This document shows positions 28,299 to 36,585 of a stretch of 64,000 bases of DNA, piece by piece. The stretch's first letter is position 1; every line of letters begins with the position of its first letter. The translations under genes were made by a program, and so were the position numbers. The stretch lies in assembly GCF_947496995.1 (NCBI RefSeq), contig NZ_CANMFD010000002.1:372001-436000 (forward strand), read 5' to 3'. The stretch comes from an uncultured Roseibium sp. Lineage in GTDB: Bacteria > Pseudomonadota > Alphaproteobacteria > Rhizobiales > Stappiaceae. The notes below the pieces were generated by a model. That model was not told where the DNA came from, ran no database searches, and saw only the letters and a list, made by a program, of their open reading frames with translations.

Positions 28299-28676
28299 TC
28301 AGCGGGCAGCGGCACTCTGGTCAGCGGCCTGAAGCGACACGGATTCGCCGCAGCCGCATGCGGAAACCTCATTCGGGTTCCTGAATACAAATCCGGACCG
28401 GAACTTGGTGACTTCGAAGTCCATCTCGGTTCCGAGCAGGAAAAGCACCGCAGACGGATCGACAAACAGCTTTGCGCCCTTGTCCTCAATCACGTCGTCC
28501 CCGGCTTTTGCCTCTTCCACGAGGTCCATCGTGTATTCCATGCCGGCACAGCCACCGGTCTTGATCCCGACACGCAAGCCAATCGCCTTTCCATCGGAAT
28601 TCTCGACGAGTTCCGACACGCGCCCGGCGGCGGCAGCGGTCAGTGTCATAACCTGGAATTTTCCGGCGGAAGCCAT
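28299..28676 (-). CDS. sufA: A-type Fe-S cluster carrier SufA
   Basis: The 125-residue A-type carrier has ligand cysteines in KTGGCAGMEY and SACGCGES. It ends the suf operon, where it would take clusters built on SufBCD and pass them to apoproteins. The spacing from sufT is 73 nt. The C-terminal tail after the CGC motif is about 15 residues longer than in ErpA. Confidence 0.92.
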   Translation of the reverse strand: MASAGKFQVMTLTAAAAGRVSELVENSDGKAIGLRVGIKTGGCAGMEYTMDLVEEAKAGDDVIEDKGAKLFVDPSAVLFLLGTEMDFEVTKFRSGFVFRNPNEVSACGCGESVSLQAADQSAAAR

Positions 28677-28749
28677 TTCGTCCTCATTCAGTTCCGGGGT
28701 ACCAAAACCTGATATAGGGTGTCAGCTTATCGGATAAAAGGTTGCCAAC

Positions 28750-29145
28750 TCAATACCAGTTGAGAGCAACCTTGGCTTCGTCGGACATCCTGTCCGGTGT
28801 CCATGGCGGATCGAAGACCATATCGACGTTGACGGGACCGACACCGGCCACGGCCGAGACGGCATTTTCCACCCACCCCGGCATTTCTCCGGCGACCGGG
28901 CATCCCGGTGCGGTCAGCGTCATGTCGATATTGATCGACCGATCATCCTCGATATCGACCTTGTAGATCAGGCCGAGTTCGTAGATATCGCACGGAATTT
29001 CCGGATCGTAGACCGACTTCAGAGCGCCGACGATATCGCTCGTCAGCCTGTCGAGTTCATCGGCGGGAATGGCGCTTTTGGCCGAGACTTCAGTCTGCAG
29101 CTCTTCGCCATTCGCGGCGGTATCAATCGTGGTAGCGTTTTCCAT
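28750..29145 (-). CDS. sufT: SufT-like DUF59/MIP18 Fe-S maturation factor
   Basis: The 131-residue protein has a DUF59 domain (about 32-130) with the characteristic SVYDPEIPCDIYELGLIY and TLTAPGCPVAGEMP segments. Proteins of this family help mature Fe-S proteins; SufT lacks the ATPase part of Mrp/ApbC. It is the equivalent of sufX in the Agrobacterium suf operon. It begins 13 nt after sufS, consistent with co-translation. Confidence 0.92.
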   Translation of the reverse strand: MENATTIDTAANGEELQTEVSAKSAIPADELDRLTSDIVGALKSVYDPEIPCDIYELGLIYKVDIEDDRSINIDMTLTAPGCPVAGEMPGWVENAVSAVAGVGPVNVDMVFDPPWTPDRMSDEAKVALNWY

Positions 29146-29158
29146 TCTGGGTCCGTCC

Positions 29159-30415
29159 TTACCCGAAAAAACTCTGGGCCTTGATCAGCGCCTCGTAAAG
29201 CGCATCAACTTCGTCGCGGGTGTTATAAAGCCCGAAGCTTGCCCGACATGTAGAGGTCACACCGTATCTTGCCAAGAGCGGCTGAGCGCAATGGGTGCCG
29301 GCGCGAACCGCAACCCCTGCCCTGTCGATGATCGTCGCCACATCATGGGCATGAGCCCCCTTGATCTCAAAGGAAACAATAGCTCCTTTTCCAGGCGCAT
29401 CGCCGAAGATTCTGAGGGAATTGATTTCCTTCAGTTTCTGATGTGCATAGTCCTTCAGATCCGCCTCGTGACGGGCGATATTCTCCCGGCCGAGCGCATC
29501 CATGTAATCGAGGGCCGCTCCCAGTCCGATCGCCTGGACGATCGGCGGGGTCCCCGCTTCAAAGCGATGCGGAGGATCATTATAGGTGATCACGTCTTCG
29601 GTGACATCCAGGATCATTTCGCCGCCGCCGTTGAACGGCCGCAGTGCCTTCAGCCTGTCGGGTTTGCCCCACAGGACGCCAATTCCGGATGGCCCGTAGA
29701 CCTTGTGGCCCGTGAAGACGTAATAGTCGCAATCGATTTCCTGAACGTCGACCGGCAAATGCACGGCCGCCTGACTGCCGTCGACCAGCACCGGAATGCC
29801 GCGCTCATGGGCGATGCGGCAGACTTCCTTGACCGGAACCACGGTGCCAAGAACGTTGGACATATGCGTGATCGCCACCAGCCTGGTCTTGTCGCTGAGC
29901 GCATCCGCGAAGGCATCGAGGTCAAACGACCCGTCTTCGCGGACATAGACCCATTTCAGCTTTGCGCCATGGCGCTCGCGATGGAAATGCCAGGGTACGA
30001 TGTTCGAGTGGTGCTCCATGATGGAAAGCACGATCTCTCCACCATCGGCGAAATAGTCCGGTCCAAGGCCATAGGAGACAAGGTTGATCGCTTCCGTCGT
30101 CGACTTGGTGAAGACGACCTCGTCAACGGATCCTGCATTGAGGAACCGGCGGACCTTCTCGCGGGCAGCCTCGTAATTGTCCGTCGCGGTGTTGGACAGG
30201 TAGTGCAGGCCACGGTGCACATTGGCATATTCATGCGAATACGCATTGGTGACCGCATCGATAACGGCCTGCGGCTTTTGCGCCGACGCCCCGTTGTCGA
30301 GATAGACCAGCGGCTTTCCATAGACTTCGCGCGCCAGGATCGGGAAATCCTTGCGGACCGTTTCGACATCGTAACCCGATGTCCGGGAGGTCTCGTGAGC
30401 GGTTGCAACCGACAT
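29159..30415 (-). CDS. sufS: Cysteine desulfurase SufS
   Basis: This PLP enzyme removes sulfur from cysteine as a persulfide for Fe-S assembly. The 418-residue protein has the Schiff-base Lys in FTGHKVYGPSG and the reactive Cys in TSTCRASFG, the short-loop arrangement of group II (SufS) desulfurases, which normally work with SufE or SufU. No sufE is adjacent. It lies between sufD and sufT. A group I-type desulfurase heads the same operon. Confidence 0.95.
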   Translation of the reverse strand: MSVATAHETSRTSGYDVETVRKDFPILAREVYGKPLVYLDNGASAQKPQAVIDAVTNAYSHEYANVHRGLHYLSNTATDNYEAAREKVRRFLNAGSVDEVVFTKSTTEAINLVSYGLGPDYFADGGEIVLSIMEHHSNIVPWHFHRERHGAKLKWVYVREDGSFDLDAFADALSDKTRLVAITHMSNVLGTVVPVKEVCRIAHERGIPVLVDGSQAAVHLPVDVQEIDCDYYVFTGHKVYGPSGIGVLWGKPDRLKALRPFNGGGEMILDVTEDVITYNDPPHRFEAGTPPIVQAIGLGAALDYMDALGRENIARHEADLKDYAHQKLKEINSLRIFGDAPGKGAIVSFEIKGAHAHDVATIIDRAGVAVRAGTHCAQPLLARYGVTSTCRASFGLYNTRDEVDALYEALIKAQSFFG

Positions 30416-30563: not shown

Positions 30564-31883
30564 CTAGTGGCCGGCGAGCCAGTCGCGCACCCGCGCTTCC
30601 AGGCCCTCGGTCACGTCGTCTTCGCCATATTCCTCGATTGCCTCGGCAAGGAAAGCGAGCACGAGAAGTGTTCTGGCCTCGTCTTCCGGAATACCGCGGG
30701 CGCGGAGGTAGAACAGCAGATCCTCGTCAATCTGTCCGCTGGTTGCGCCATGCGCGCAAATAACGTCGTCCGCGAAGATCTCCAGCTCCGGCTTGTTGGC
30801 CATTTCTGCATCCTCGGAGAGAAGCAGCGCCTGGGTCATCATTTCGCCGTCGGTTTTCTGGGCATGCTGGGCAACATTGATGCGCCCCTGGTAGACACCC
30901 TTCGCCCGGCCGTCGAGAACCGTCTTGAAGAATTCGCGGCTGTTGCAGTGAGGAACCGCATGATCGACGATCAGTGTCTGATCCGCCAGATCCTCATCGC
31001 GCGCCATGGTGACACCGTAAATCCCGGCATTGGAATTCTCGCCCGCAAAATTGATGAACTGCTGGTTGCGGATAAAACGCGGGCCGGCAATAAATCCGAG
31101 AGATTTGAATTCCGCTTGCGCGCCGATGGTGGCAATCGAGGTGAACAGCCTGGCGGCATCCGACTGTCCGACGATCAGCCGTGTCGCCACAAGCGACGCC
31201 GTATCGGCAACGTCGTAGTCGAAGACAATGTTGATTTCGCCGTTACCGGTTTCGCCGGCGAAGGTCTCCAGGAGGCGCAGTTTCGCACCCTTTGCGACGC
31301 TGATCCTGCTGCGGCTGATCTGCCCGCCGGCCGAAGCCGCCACGTGTACCAATTCGACAGGCCTTGAGATTTCAGCGCCTTCTTTCACCTTCACGACCAC
31401 GCCCCCCTGAACGAAAGCCGTGTTCAGGGCCAGGACGCCGTCATTGGCCGCAGACTTCGGCGAGGCGAGCAGCTGTGCGCCGTGCTCGCCGGCAAGTTCG
31501 TCGGTCAGGCTGGTAACGCTCACGCCTTCGCCTGCGAGCGCCTCGAGATCGGAAAGCCCGGGAAGAAAGGCGCCATTGGCAACGACGATCCGGTAGCGTT
31601 CAAGCTCACCAAAGGCATCCTGGCCACCCAGAATGGCTTTGACAGCGCTTTCATCGGCGGCGGCGGCCAATGGAGCGGCCGACTTCATGAAGGCGCGCAG
31701 ATCGGTGTATTTGTATTCCTCGACACGCCGGTGCGGCAAACCCTTGTCGCGGATCTGGCTGACAGCGGCTTCCCTGAGGGCCGTGACAGCCACGGAACCG
31801 CTCAAGGCGCCCTTGGCGGCCTCGAAGCGGTCGATCAGATCGCTTTCAGCCTGCGTGTGTTTGATGGGGACGCTTGCATTCAT
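30564..31883 (-). CDS. sufD: Fe-S assembly protein SufD
   Basis: SufD pairs with SufB in the SufBC2D scaffold. The 439-residue protein has the right-handed beta-helix core and the conserved C-terminal region CAHGATSGQIDEDLLFYLRAR. The start ATG has GAGGGAG about 8 nt upstream; an in-frame TTG six codons earlier overlaps that site and is unlikely. It begins 14 nt after sufC. Confidence 0.94.
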   Translation of the reverse strand: MNASVPIKHTQAESDLIDRFEAAKGALSGSVAVTALREAAVSQIRDKGLPHRRVEEYKYTDLRAFMKSAAPLAAAADESAVKAILGGQDAFGELERYRIVVANGAFLPGLSDLEALAGEGVSVTSLTDELAGEHGAQLLASPKSAANDGVLALNTAFVQGGVVVKVKEGAEISRPVELVHVAASAGGQISRSRISVAKGAKLRLLETFAGETGNGEINIVFDYDVADTASLVATRLIVGQSDAARLFTSIATIGAQAEFKSLGFIAGPRFIRNQQFINFAGENSNAGIYGVTMARDEDLADQTLIVDHAVPHCNSREFFKTVLDGRAKGVYQGRINVAQHAQKTDGEMMTQALLLSEDAEMANKPELEIFADDVICAHGATSGQIDEDLLFYLRARGIPEDEARTLLVLAFLAEAIEEYGEDDVTEGLEARVRDWLAGH

Positions 31884-31897
31884 TTCGCGTTGCTCCC

Positions 31898-32653
31898 TCA
31901 AGCTGCGGCGTCGACGTAGTCGGCGTAACCGTTCTTTTCCAGCTCAAGCGCCAGATCCTTGTCGCCGGTCTTGACGATCCTGCCCTTCGACAGGACATGC
32001 ACGACATCGGGCACGATGTGATCCAGCAGACGCTGGTAGTGGGTGATGACCACCATGGCCCGGTCCGGACCGCGCAGCTTGTTGACACCGTCAGAGACGA
32101 TACGCAGCGCATCGATGTCGAGACCGGAGTCTGTTTCGTCCAGCACGCAGAGTCTCGGCTCCAGCAGAGACATCTGCAGGATTTCGGCGCGCTTCTTCTC
32201 GCCGCCGGAAAAACCGACATTGAGCGGGCGCTTCAGCATGTCCATGGACACGTTGAGATGACCCGCAGCTTCCTTGACCCGCTTCATGAAGTCGGGAATG
32301 GAAAGCTGGGCTTCACCGCGCGCCTTGCGCTGTGCGTTCATCGCCGTTTTCAGGAATTCCATGGTGGCGACACCCGGGATCTCGATCGGGTACTGAAACG
32401 CCAGGAACATGCCCGCGGCTGCGCGCTCGTCCGGAGACATGTCCAGCATGTTCTGGCCGTCGAAAAGCACTTCGCCCTCGGTGACCTCGTAATCGTCCTT
32501 GCCGGCGAGAACATAGGACAGGGTCGACTTGCCGGAACCGTTCGGTCCCATGATGGCATGCACTTCGCCCGCCTTGACGGTCAGATTGACGCCGCGCAGG
32601 ATTTCCGTTTCGTCTTCCGCGATGCGGGCGTGCAGATTTTTGATCTCAAGCAT
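31898..32653 (-). CDS. sufC: Suf complex ATPase SufC
   Basis: SufC is the ABC-type ATPase that drives shape changes of the SufB-SufD scaffold. The 251-residue protein has Walker A GPNGSGKSTL, signature FSGGEKKR, Walker B CVLDETDSGLD and the switch His in VITHYQRLL. It lacks any membrane partner, as expected. A spacer of 211 nt separates it from sufB, longer than the other gaps in the operon. Confidence 0.96.
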   Translation of the reverse strand: MLEIKNLHARIAEDETEILRGVNLTVKAGEVHAIMGPNGSGKSTLSYVLAGKDDYEVTEGEVLFDGQNMLDMSPDERAAAGMFLAFQYPIEIPGVATMEFLKTAMNAQRKARGEAQLSIPDFMKRVKEAAGHLNVSMDMLKRPLNVGFSGGEKKRAEILQMSLLEPRLCVLDETDSGLDIDALRIVSDGVNKLRGPDRAMVVITHYQRLLDHIVPDVVHVLSKGRIVKTGDKDLALELEKNGYADYVDAAA

Positions 32654-32864: not shown

Positions 32865-34337
32865 TTACCCAACGGATCCTTCCAGGCTGATCGAGATCAG
32901 CTTCTGCGCCTCGACAGCGAATTCCATCGGCAGCTGCTGGATGACGTCCTTGACGAAACCGTTGACGATCAGCGCCACGGCTTCTTCCTCGGTCAGTCCA
33001 CGCTGCAGGCAATAGAACATCTGGTCGTCCGAGATCTTCGAGGTGGTCGCCTCGTGCTCGAACTGGGCCGATGCGTTCTTGCTCTCGATGTAGGGCACCG
33101 TGTGGGCGCCGCAGTCCTGCCCGATAAGCAGCGAATCGCACTGAGTGAAGTTGCGAGCGTTCGACGCCTTGCGATGTGCCGAAACCAGACCGCGATAGGT
33201 GTTCTGCGACTTGCCGGCGGAAATGCCCTTGGAAATGATCCGGCTGGAGGAGTTCTTGCCCAGGTGGATCATCTTCGTGCCACTGTCGATCTGCTGATAG
33301 CCGTTGGCCACCGCGATCGAATAGAATTCGCCGCGGGAATTCTCGCCGCGCAGGATGCAGGACGGGTATTTCCAGGTGATCGCCGAACCGGTTTCCACCT
33401 GGGTCCAGGAGATCTTGGAATTCTTGCCGCGGCAATCGCCCCGCTTGGTGACGAAGTTGTAGATGCCGCCCTTGCCTTCCTTGTCGCCCGGGAACCAGTT
33501 CTGGACGGTGGAATACTTGATTTCGGCATCGTCAAGGGCGACCAGCTCGACAACGGCCGCGTGCAACTGGTTTTCATCGCGCTGCGGAGCCGTGCAGCCT
33601 TCCAGATAGGACACATATGCGCCCTTTTCCGCGATGATCAGCGTGCGTTCGAACTGACCGGTATTCTGTTCATTGATGCGGAAGTAGGTCGACAATTCCA
33701 TCGGGCAGCGTACGCCCTCGGGAACATAGACGAACGAACCGTCGGAAAAGACGGCCGAGTTCAGGGTCGCATAATAGTTGTCCGTGACCGGAACAACCGA
33801 GCCCAGATATTTCTTCACCAGGTCCGGATACTCGCGCAAGGCTTCGGAGATGGAACAAAAAATGACGCCGGCCTTCTTGAGTTCTTCCTTGAAGGTGGTC
33901 ACCACGGACACGGAATCGAACACCGCATCGACCGCGACGCGGTTCTTCGGTTCCACACCCGCGAGGACTTCCTGCTCGCGAAGCGGGATACCGAGTTTCT
34001 CGTAGGTGGCCAGAAGCTCCGGATCGACTTCATCGAGGCTTTTCGGGCCTTCGACGGACTTCGGCGACGCCCAGTAATAAAGCTCGTCAAAATCGATTTT
34101 CGGATAGGAAACGCGTGCCCAGTCCGGCTCTTCCATCTGCATGAAACGGCGCAGCGCATCCAGACGCCACTCGGTCATCCATTCCGGTTCGTTCTTCTTG
34201 GCTGACAGAAAACGGACGGTCTCTTCGGAGAGCCCTTTGGCGCCTCTTTCGGAATCGATGTCCGTCACGAAGCCGTATTTATACTGGTCGACATCGATGG
34301 CTTTCACCCTGTCGATGGTTTCCTGTACAGCTGGCAT
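32865..34337 (-). CDS. sufB: Fe-S scaffold protein SufB
   Basis: SufB is the scaffold on which the nascent Fe-S cluster forms. The 490-residue protein has the conserved family regions ([44 protein letters not shown]) and the C-terminal [10 protein letters not shown] segment containing a conserved Cys. The length matches the family. It follows the operon's first gene by 111 nt. Confidence 0.96.
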
Positions 34338-34448: not shown

Positions 34449-35618
34449 TCAGGCCGCCCTGTGGCGTGCCTGCGGGTTGAGCCGTTCGACAATGCGCGGC
34501 CAGAGCTCCAGAACCCTGTCGATCTCGGCCTGAGAAGTGTTCCAGCCCATGCTGATGCGAAGCGCACAGCGGGCGAGGTCTTCCCCGACACCCATTGCCG
34601 TCAGAACATGCGACACCGACACTTTTCCCGAAGAACATGCGGATCCGGACGAAAGGGATACGTTCTCCAGATCGAACGAGATCAACGCAGTTTCCGCCGG
34701 AACACCCGTGACGGCGAAACAGCTCGTATTTTCCAGGCGATCCGCAGCTTCTCCGAAGATGACCGTTGCCGGACAAACGTTTCGCAACCCGGTCTCGAGC
34801 CTGGCTTTCATCTCTGCGAGATGGCGTGTCCGTGACAAATCGTCAAGAGCAGCTTCTGCCGCAGCACCAAATCCGGCAATCGCCGCGACATTTTCCGTAC
34901 CGCCCCGCCGCCAGTTTTCCTGTCCGCCGCCGACCATCAGGGGCGATGGCCCCCGCGCGGTGGACCGGATAACAACAGCACCGATGCCCTGCGGCCCGCC
35001 GAATTTATGGGCCGACAAGGAAACCGCATCCGCCTGCCAGGCGTCCATGTCGATCTTCATCCGGCCGGCGGCCTGAACCGCGTCCACATGAAAGAAATGG
35101 CCGTATTTCGCGGCAAGCGCACCAATTTCCGCAAGCGGCTGGAGCACGCCGGTCTCGTTGTTGGCGGCCATGACCGAGATCAGCCCCGGATTGGCATCCT
35201 TCACGGCATCTTCCAGTGCTTCGAGCCTGAGGCGGCCGTCCGGATCGACGGCAACCACGATCTGGTCCGCAGTCGCAAACCGTCCGCCGGTCGTAACCGA
35301 AGGATGCTCGACAGCACTCAGGAAGAGCTTGTCGAGATACACAGGCGCGCCCCTGTCCTGCCAGACAGGCGACAATGCGGTCATGTTCGCTTCGGTGCCG
35401 CCTGAAACGAAGGTAACAGCCCTGCTGCCGGAGCCGCAAAGACGGGCGACCTTCTCTCTGGCGGCTTCTATCCTGCCGCGCGCCGTGCGACCGTGGCCAT
35501 GGACGGAAGAAGCATTTCCGGCGTCTTCAAGCGCCTCGATCATCACCTCGCGCGCAGCGGTTCGCAGGGGTGCGCCCGCGTTGTAGTCGAGGTAGATCGG
35601 ATCGAATTGGCGCTGCAT
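34449..35618 (-). CDS. Cysteine desulfurase, IscS/NifS type (sufS2 position)
   Basis: The 389-residue PLP enzyme has the Schiff-base Lys in SLSAHKFGGPQG and the mobile-loop Cys in SSGSACSSGKVSVS, the group I (IscS/NifS) arrangement. It heads the suf operon, in the place of sufS2 in the Agrobacterium-type sufS2BCDS1XA order. No iscU or iscR is present, so its sulfur probably goes to SufB; this is inference. Its start is 160 nt from an Irr-like palindrome. Confidence 0.92.
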   Translation of the reverse strand: MQRQFDPIYLDYNAGAPLRTAAREVMIEALEDAGNASSVHGHGRTARGRIEAAREKVARLCGSGSRAVTFVSGGTEANMTALSPVWQDRGAPVYLDKLFLSAVEHPSVTTGGRFATADQIVVAVDPDGRLRLEALEDAVKDANPGLISVMAANNETGVLQPLAEIGALAAKYGHFFHVDAVQAAGRMKIDMDAWQADAVSLSAHKFGGPQGIGAVVIRSTARGPSPLMVGGGQENWRRGGTENVAAIAGFGAAAEAALDDLSRTRHLAEMKARLETGLRNVCPATVIFGEAADRLENTSCFAVTGVPAETALISFDLENVSLSSGSACSSGKVSVSHVLTAMGVGEDLARCALRISMGWNTSQAEIDRVLELWPRIVERLNPQARHRAA

Positions 35619-35777
35619 GACACCTTTTAAGCCTGAAACGGTGCTAGGTTAGGGTCGAAAAATCGCTTATACATCAGACACATGTTCGAAAAACTTGAAA
35701 TTTTCCGCTGTGATGACGATAACAGCCCCCAACCGGTCGAACCGAGTGTCGTCTGCAACTGAGTTGGCGGTGCGAAC

Positions 35778-35794
35778 TTTCGAATAATTCTAAA
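35778..35794 (-). promoter_or_regulatory. Irr-box-like palindrome upstream of the suf operon
   Basis: Read on the minus strand, the 17 bases are TTTAGAA-N3-TTCGAAA, one mismatch from the perfect palindrome TTTAGAA-N3-TTCTAAA of Irr-regulated promoters in Rhizobiales. A further TTCTAGAA palindrome is at 35800-35807. The site is 160 bp before the first suf gene and about 120 bp before the divergent hydrolase gene. Irr control of suf is known in relatives; binding here is inferred. Confidence 0.6.
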
Positions 35795-35916
35795 CAAGGT
35801 TCTAGAAACTCGGAACCAAAGAGTCAAGTTTAGTCTTACGGGAAATCACGTAACAAGACTCTGAAAATCCAGCGCCGGAAACCCGGCGCGACAATTTGAC
35901 AAGGACATAACGCTTC

Positions 35917-36585
35917 ATGCCCGAAGTGATCTTCAACGGTCCCGCAGGCCGGCTCGAGGGCCGGTTCCATCCAGCCAAAAAGCGGAACGCCCCCATCGCT
36001 CTGGTTCTGCACCTGCATCCCCAGTTCGGCGGCACGATGAACAACCAGATTGTTTATCAGATGTACTACATGTTCGCCCGGCGCGGATTTGCCGTTTTGC
36101 GCTTCAATTTCCGCGGCGTCGGCCGTTCCCAGGGGACTTTCGATCACGGTCAGGGCGAGTTGTCAGATGCCGCTGCCGCTCTCGACTGGGTACAGACCGT
36201 CCATACGGACGCGCGCGCCTGCTGGATCGCCGGCTTTTCCTTCGGTGCCTGGATCGGCATGCAGTTGCTCATGCGCCGCCCGGAAGTGGAAGGCTTCATC
36301 TCCGTTGCCCCGCCCGCGAATCTGCATGACTTCTCCTTCCTTGCCCCCTGCCCGTCCTCCGGCCTGATCATCCACGGCGACAACGACAAGGTCGTGCCGC
36401 AGAAGGATGTCCAGACACTGGTCGACAAGCTGAAGACGCAAAAGGGAATCGTCATCGATCATGAGACCATTCCGGGTGCCAACCATTTCTTTGAAAACGA
36501 TCTGGATGAGCTGATGGAGCGCTGCGGCACCTATGTCGATGGCCGCCTCGGGTTGACCCCGGAGGATTACCTCAACGTCGACTGA
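35917..36585 (+). CDS. Alpha/beta hydrolase
   Basis: The 222-residue hydrolase has the nucleophile elbow GFSFGA, the acid in HGDNDKVVP and the His in GANHFF, with no signal peptide. This short type often appears as a conserved alphaproteobacterial hydrolase beside the suf operon. The substrate is unknown. It is divergent from the suf operon, with a 298-nt shared spacer holding the Irr-like palindrome, and is followed by a strong terminator. Confidence 0.88.
   Translation: MPEVIFNGPAGRLEGRFHPAKKRNAPIALVLHLHPQFGGTMNNQIVYQMYYMFARRGFAVLRFNFRGVGRSQGTFDHGQGELSDAAAALDWVQTVHTDARACWIAGFSFGAWIGMQLLMRRPEVEGFISVAPPANLHDFSFLAPCPSSGLIIHGDNDKVVPQKDVQTLVDKLKTQKGIVIDHETIPGANHFFENDLDELMERCGTYVDGRLGLTPEDYLNVD

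Follow-up and report, generated by a model that had tools for sequence, protein, structure and literature searches.

What controls the suf operon at this locus, and through which site does it act? A reading made from the sequence alone had proposed that a palindrome upstream of the first suf gene is an Irr-type site and that the heme-responsive regulator Irr may be the main control of the operon. In the window, by which we mean the whole 64-kb stretch of DNA that was analysed, the operon runs on the minus strand in the order sufS2-sufB-sufC-sufD-sufS and then two small genes, and an alpha/beta-hydrolase gene diverges from it. The genes are as follows.

35917..36585, plus strand: divergent alpha/beta-hydrolase gene (Pfam alpha/beta-hydrolase families above cut-off)
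34449..35618, minus strand: sufS2, an IscS/NifS-type cysteine desulfurase and the first gene of the operon (Pfam Aminotran_5 above cut-off; NifS/IscS models below their curated cut-offs)
32865..34337, minus strand: sufB (TIGR01980, 633.8 bits, above cut-off)
31898..32653, minus strand: sufC (TIGR01978, 358 bits, above cut-off)
30564..31901, minus strand: sufD (TIGR01981, 223.3 bits against a cut-off of 222)
29159..30415, minus strand: sufS (TIGR01979, 581.1 bits, above cut-off)
28299..29145, minus strand: the operon's last two genes, both small, open frames (28750-29145 and 28299-28676) that look SUF/PaaD-like and SufA-like by eye

The palindrome proved to be correctly placed and spelled: positions 35778-35794 read TTTCGAATAATTCTAAA on the plus strand and TTTAGAATTATTCGAAA on its complement, which is the suf strand. 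We take the consensus of the Irr box (ICE) to be TTTAGAA-N3-TTCTAAA, and these letters were used for all matching. The suf strand, TTTAGAA-TTA-TTCGAAA, agrees with them at 13 of the 14 specified bases, which bears out the single mismatch that had been claimed. The box was also said to lie upstream of both flanking genes, and it is indeed found about 160 bp 5' of the sufS2 start (35618, minus strand) and 122 bp 5' of the hydrolase start (35917). Irr boxes, or ICE motifs, have been described as such (PMC3413700, PMC7762939). The elements around the box to which the argument refers are these.

35823..35828, minus strand: CTTGAC, -35 element of the predicted suf promoter, invariant in 21/21 Roseibium loci
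35812..35826, minus strand: TGA-N9-TCC, a half-changed RirA/Rrf2-type dyad that overlaps the -35 element, present in 21/21 Roseibium loci and a putative binding site of a RirA-like protein
35800..35805, minus strand: CTAGAA, -10 element of the predicted suf promoter, separated from CTTGAC by 17 nt and from the box by 5 nt
35778..35794, minus strand: TTTAGAATTATTCGAAA, candidate Irr box (ICE), proposed from its one mismatch to the consensus and its conservation

A match of this quality is rare. The box is the sole match in the 64-kb window both at ≤1 and at ≤3 mismatches, and dinucleotide shuffles give chance expectations for the window of 0.00 and 0.67, respectively. Across the whole genome (5.46 Mb in 15 contigs), four places match the Irr box with ≤1 mismatch, versus one for a reversed control pattern. 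At ≤2 mismatches there is no excess over the control, with 8 places for the Irr box versus 16 for the control; because the control outnumbers the matches at this level, only the strict set is considered informative. The four strict places precede a bacterioferritin gene (bfr), a gene for an FbpA-like ABC substrate-binding protein, suf, and an imelysin gene, and all four of these, by reading, are iron-linked. The bfr box is perfect and the bfr assignment is above cut-off (TIGR00754). The FbpA-like periplasmic protein was named by reading, its NCBIfam matches being below their cut-offs, as was the imelysin gene, which falls below the curated cut-off. Two of the four extra places at 2 mismatches, beside hmuS (L127) and sdhC (L125), appear iron-linked by reading of the frames.

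Conservation was assessed in 110 loci, which came from 30 of the 31 genomes searched and from the best 80 of 529 relatives; three of them (L049, L058, L064), whose sequence pieces showed no sufS2, were left out, giving 107 suf-linked loci. The hydrolase was matched in 31/31 of the genomes searched. Among named relatives, its locus is nearest to those of Roseibium sp. MMSF_3544 (95%) and R. aggregatum (92%), which is why the window is assigned to Roseibium. A box was counted if it had ≤2 mismatches and lay in the 600 bp that precede the hydrolase start. It is present in 80 of the 107 suf-linked loci, including every one from Roseibium (21/21, the window included), other Stappiaceae (3/3), Rhizobiaceae (20/20), Phyllobacteriaceae/Aurantimonadaceae (16/16) and Devosia (4/4). 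Among the loci grouped as "other," 16 of 27 have it and 11 do not at ≤2 mismatches. Within the same limits (≤2 mismatches, 600 bp from the hydrolase start) the Bradyrhizobiaceae-like loci gave 0/16, and a perfect Irr box at the hydrolase-suf locus was found in 0/110. Most of the Bradyrhizobiaceae-like loci without the box (e.g., L060, L062, L063, L065, L067-L072) keep the hydrolase-sufS2 neighbourhood.

The promoter ahead of the box is conserved together with it. Its -35 and -10 elements were called using what we take to be the alphaproteobacterial promoter consensus; a promoter scan of the intergenic region with an E. coli-type consensus returned 0 promoters. No invariant stretch in the intergenic alignment is longer than the one that contains CTTGAC (35822-35831). 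All 21 Roseibium loci have CTTGAC, a 17-nt spacer and a CTAGAA-type -10 element ahead of the box, which begins 5-6 nt after the -10; the same arrangement of CTTGAC, 17-nt spacer and -10 precedes the box in 20/20 Rhizobiaceae loci, with a gap of 3-5 nt. In Phyllobacteriaceae/Aurantimonadaceae the -35 is CTTGAC in 16/16 loci and the spacer is 17 nt in 15/16. The more distant groups are less clear, CTTGAC being found in 0/4 Devosia loci and in 8/16 of the box-bearing "other" loci. From this layout, the suf transcription start would fall on the Irr box; since the box covers this predicted start, the arrangement would represent repressor geometry, as reported for Rhodobacter mbfA, where the mapped start lies inside the Irr box and was interpreted in the same way (PMC3413700). 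The likeness extends to Bradyrhizobium bfr, for which an Irr box on the start is likewise read as repressor geometry in that paper. The target gene differs from both of these, and the suf start is predicted, whereas that of mbfA was mapped.

A second palindrome, TTCTAGAA, had been noted next to the first. It is present at 35800-35807, beside the box; a role as a further operator did not hold up, and it is better read as the suf -10 region. The palindrome is intact in 15/21 Roseibium and 9/20 Rhizobiaceae loci. As a second Irr operator it was rejected because the hexamer varies within Roseibium (CTAGAA, TTAGAA, CTAAAA), whereas all 21 loci keep CTTGAC and the 17-nt spacer.

Other features of the intergenic region were also observed. 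No known RNA element was detected in it with Rfam at E values up to 1. A hairpin, GCGCCGG-AAAC-CCGGCGC, lies at 35872-35889 (plus strand), just 5' of the hydrolase start; a terminator scan lists it as well, for the minus strand, where 0.7 are expected. Many Roseibium loci have a stem of differing letters at a similar distance from the hydrolase start codon (≥6 pairs in 9/21 by a per-sequence stem search); a consensus fold of the relatives gave no pairs for this hairpin. Between the Irr box and sufS2, a second block (35694-35722, plus strand) is conserved in many Roseibium loci. By eye it is CTTGAA-N17-CGATAA, oriented toward the hydrolase, and if it were the hydrolase promoter, the hydrolase transcript would cross the Irr box.

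The reading that we favour, with a probability of about three in four, is that 35778-35794 is an Irr operator lying over the start of the CTTGAC-N17-CTAGAA suf promoter and that it would lower suf expression at low heme. In such a scheme, heme-free Irr would bind the suf box when the supply of heme is low, as in iron-poor cells, and the bound protein would block promoter opening or escape, so that suf transcription would fall. Plentiful heme would release Irr, and suf would be expressed. A RirA-like protein may still act through the degenerate Rrf2-type dyad overlapping the -35 element. That Irr would control suf in Roseibium through an ordinary operator, of a type already known in rhizobia, appears well supported. 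No title on Irr in Roseibium stood among the literature matches listed.

Published data from other systems point in both directions. In a Rhodobacter irr mutant, some suf genes were higher, and more so at low iron, according to PMC3413700. PMC6956336 reports that Rhodobacter Irr bound one isc-suf promoter region in vitro and not two others and that the isc-suf promoters P1 and P2 were lower in an irr mutant, and PMC6386902 reports that S. fredii sufS rises rather than falls in the iron-poor wild type. These Rhodobacter isc-suf data and the rise of S. fredii sufS count against simple repression by Irr.

The absence of an Irr gene from the genome had been named in advance as evidence that would go against Irr control. 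Such a gene is present (L002; IrrA model, 222 bits versus a cut-off of 150). It is one of three Fur-family genes, the others being Fur/Mur-like (L001) and Zur-like (L003), both below their curated cut-offs. The genome also has six Rrf2 matches, three of them above the Pfam cut-off; all three are far below the IscR cut-offs, and one, a RirA-like gene (L004) away from the operon, narrowly misses the RirA cut-off (190.6 versus 193 bits). No Rrf2/IscR gene was seen among the frames of the operon, in keeping with the sequence-only reading, the two small last genes having been judged by eye only. However, the step from this absence to Irr as the main control fails: a RirA-like gene exists elsewhere in the genome, and RirA has been reported to regulate the suf operon of Rhizobium.

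Side observations on these regulators come from several loci. Within 500 bp upstream of irr or the RirA-like gene in the window's genome, the best ICE matches carry 5 mismatches, so no ICE is claimed at either gene. In one other Roseibium genome (L191), a 1-mismatch box (1454-1470) lies 99 bp upstream of a RirA-like gene, and in another relative (L155) a box is found about 300 bp past the end of one. The genome of the window also has a symmetric variant box, TTTGGAATTATTCCAAA (L127, 1501-1517), 63 bp upstream of the gene read as hmuS, and about 50 bp from it is TGACTCCTATAATCA, by eye a perfect TGA-N9-TCA; joint control of heme use by Irr and RirA is possible there. The 2-mismatch box of L125 (1501-1517) stands before the gene read as sdhC.

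The strongest competing explanation is that RirA, an Rrf2-family sensor of Fe-S clusters, is the main suf regulator, acting through the -35 dyad in iron-replete cells, and that Irr only trims expression. PMC5863699, citing Todd and others (2005, 2006), reports regulation of R. leguminosarum suf by both RirA and Irr, and regulation of A. tumefaciens sufS2 by RirA. As in these organisms, an Irr box (ICE) and a TGA-type dyad are found at an operon that begins with sufS2, in a genome with irr and a RirA-like gene, and TGA-N9-TCC is invariant in 21/21 Roseibium loci despite its position in the promoter spacer. The RirA motif (IRO) is given as TGA-N9-TCA in PMC6386902, however, and the right half in Roseibium is TCC rather than TCA in all 21 loci, so that a perfect RirA box occurs in 0/21. 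By contrast, 18/20 Rhizobiaceae loci have a perfect TGA-N9-TCA that begins inside CTTGAC. Furthermore, L004 stays just under the RirA cut-off, and in PMC6386902 a rirA mutant of S. fredii has sufB slightly down, not up. The TGA-N9-TCC dyad suggests that RirA input in Roseibium may be weakened or altered, and the half-changed box may possibly reflect a shift toward Irr control. We consider RirA as the main regulator improbable, although it is the alternative that fares best.

A distant suf-linked locus of the order (L038) has TTGACT-N5-AGTCAGGAAT over the suf-side -35, adjoining the Irr box. This resembles what we take to be an IscR site and also fits TGA-N9-TCA, hinting at an older Rrf2 site later taken over by RirA. 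Its TGA-N9-TCA dyad over the -35 beside an Irr box is a likeness to IscR-led systems, and the operon itself is related to the IscR-led isc-suf operons of Caulobacter and Rhodobacter (PMC11475020, PMC6956336). Unlike those, the operon in the window has no iscR at its head, and none of the three Rrf2 genes above the Pfam cut-off reaches an IscR cut-off.

The two arms of the suf box are not equivalent. Of the 80 suf boxes, 78 have an exact arm on the promoter side and none has an exact far arm; on the hydrolase strand, the far-arm variants are TTTCGAA, TTTTGAA, TTTGGAA, ATTAGAA and TTTTGAG. Patterns of this kind were searched for in a sample of 397 genomes from the order, which overlap with those of the 110-locus set. 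CTTGAC with a perfect box at the suf spacing occurs in 1/397 genomes, and that single locus (L157) has no sufS2, sufB or hydrolase match in the 2,181 bases examined. A box whose far arm has G or C follows CTTGAC in 48/397; of the 29 such loci examined, 28 show sufS2 and the hydrolase and one (L158) shows neither. The mirror-image box occurs in 0/397. Irr boxes at other Roseibium genes show polarity as well, in a comparison of at least 48 sites, all with ≤1 mismatch except one that was added (L127). Among the sites listed, 11 boxes belong to bfr (2 perfect, 9 inexact in the gene-distal arm), 13 to the FbpA-like gene (1 perfect, 12 inexact in the gene-distal arm) and 9 to imelysin genes, all inexact in the gene-distal arm. 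Three belong to hmuS; in two of these the other arm is the inexact one, and in the third both arms are inexact. The rest comprise 1 rirA-like, 4 suf and 7 without a gene assignment. Because the sequences are related, these figures are counts and not independent events, and transition bias could explain part of the polarity.

These counts have led to a tentative hypothesis, which we regard as rather less likely than its converse: the Irr boxes of this group would be polarised operators, each with one exact and one off-consensus half and with a gene-specific polarity, and Roseibium suf would be more dependent on Irr than is suf in Rhizobium.

It is also conceivable that the box mainly serves the divergent hydrolase, its position at suf being incidental. 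In the loci examined the box does precede the hydrolase too, but this co-occurrence proves nothing because the hydrolase served as the means of gathering those loci. In addition, read toward the hydrolase, the box has its first arm inexact and its second exact, which is the polarity found at the FbpA-like and imelysin genes. Nevertheless, the distance from the box start to the hydrolase start ranges from 93 to 245 bp across loci, while in Roseibium and Rhizobiaceae the suf -10 and the box are always 3 to 6 nt apart; the fixed spacing on one side and the variable distance on the other point to suf as the target and make a primary role at the hydrolase very unlikely. Finally, that the likeness to an Irr box is due to chance, and its conservation to the promoter alone, is hardly credible: the genome does hold fewer matches than the reversed control at ≤2 mismatches and the adjoining promoter parts are conserved too, but window shuffles predict 0.00 matches at 1 mismatch, 16/17 box positions are invariant in the 21 aligned Roseibium sequences versus 67/290 across the region, and the box persists in other families despite divergence of the rest of the intergenic region.

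Control by an Irr operator over the suf start, the reading favoured here, would mean that Irr governs Fe-S cluster assembly not only in rhizobia, where this is known, but also in Roseibium, with a defined promoter layout. It also yields a testable difference between families: of the two sites, the RirA box over the -35 and the Irr box over the start, Rhizobiaceae have both, and Roseibium has just the Irr box in intact form. If the boxes are indeed polarised, the loss of the perfect RirA half-site would leave Roseibium suf more Irr-dependent than in Rhizobium, and the polarity could hold the affinity of Irr at suf below its maximum, such that Fe-S assembly would be damped, not shut off, in iron starvation. 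Alternatively, the promoter-side half could double as the initial transcribed sequence. A polarised box would thus provide a testable idea of how a regulator may damp an important operon without silencing it.
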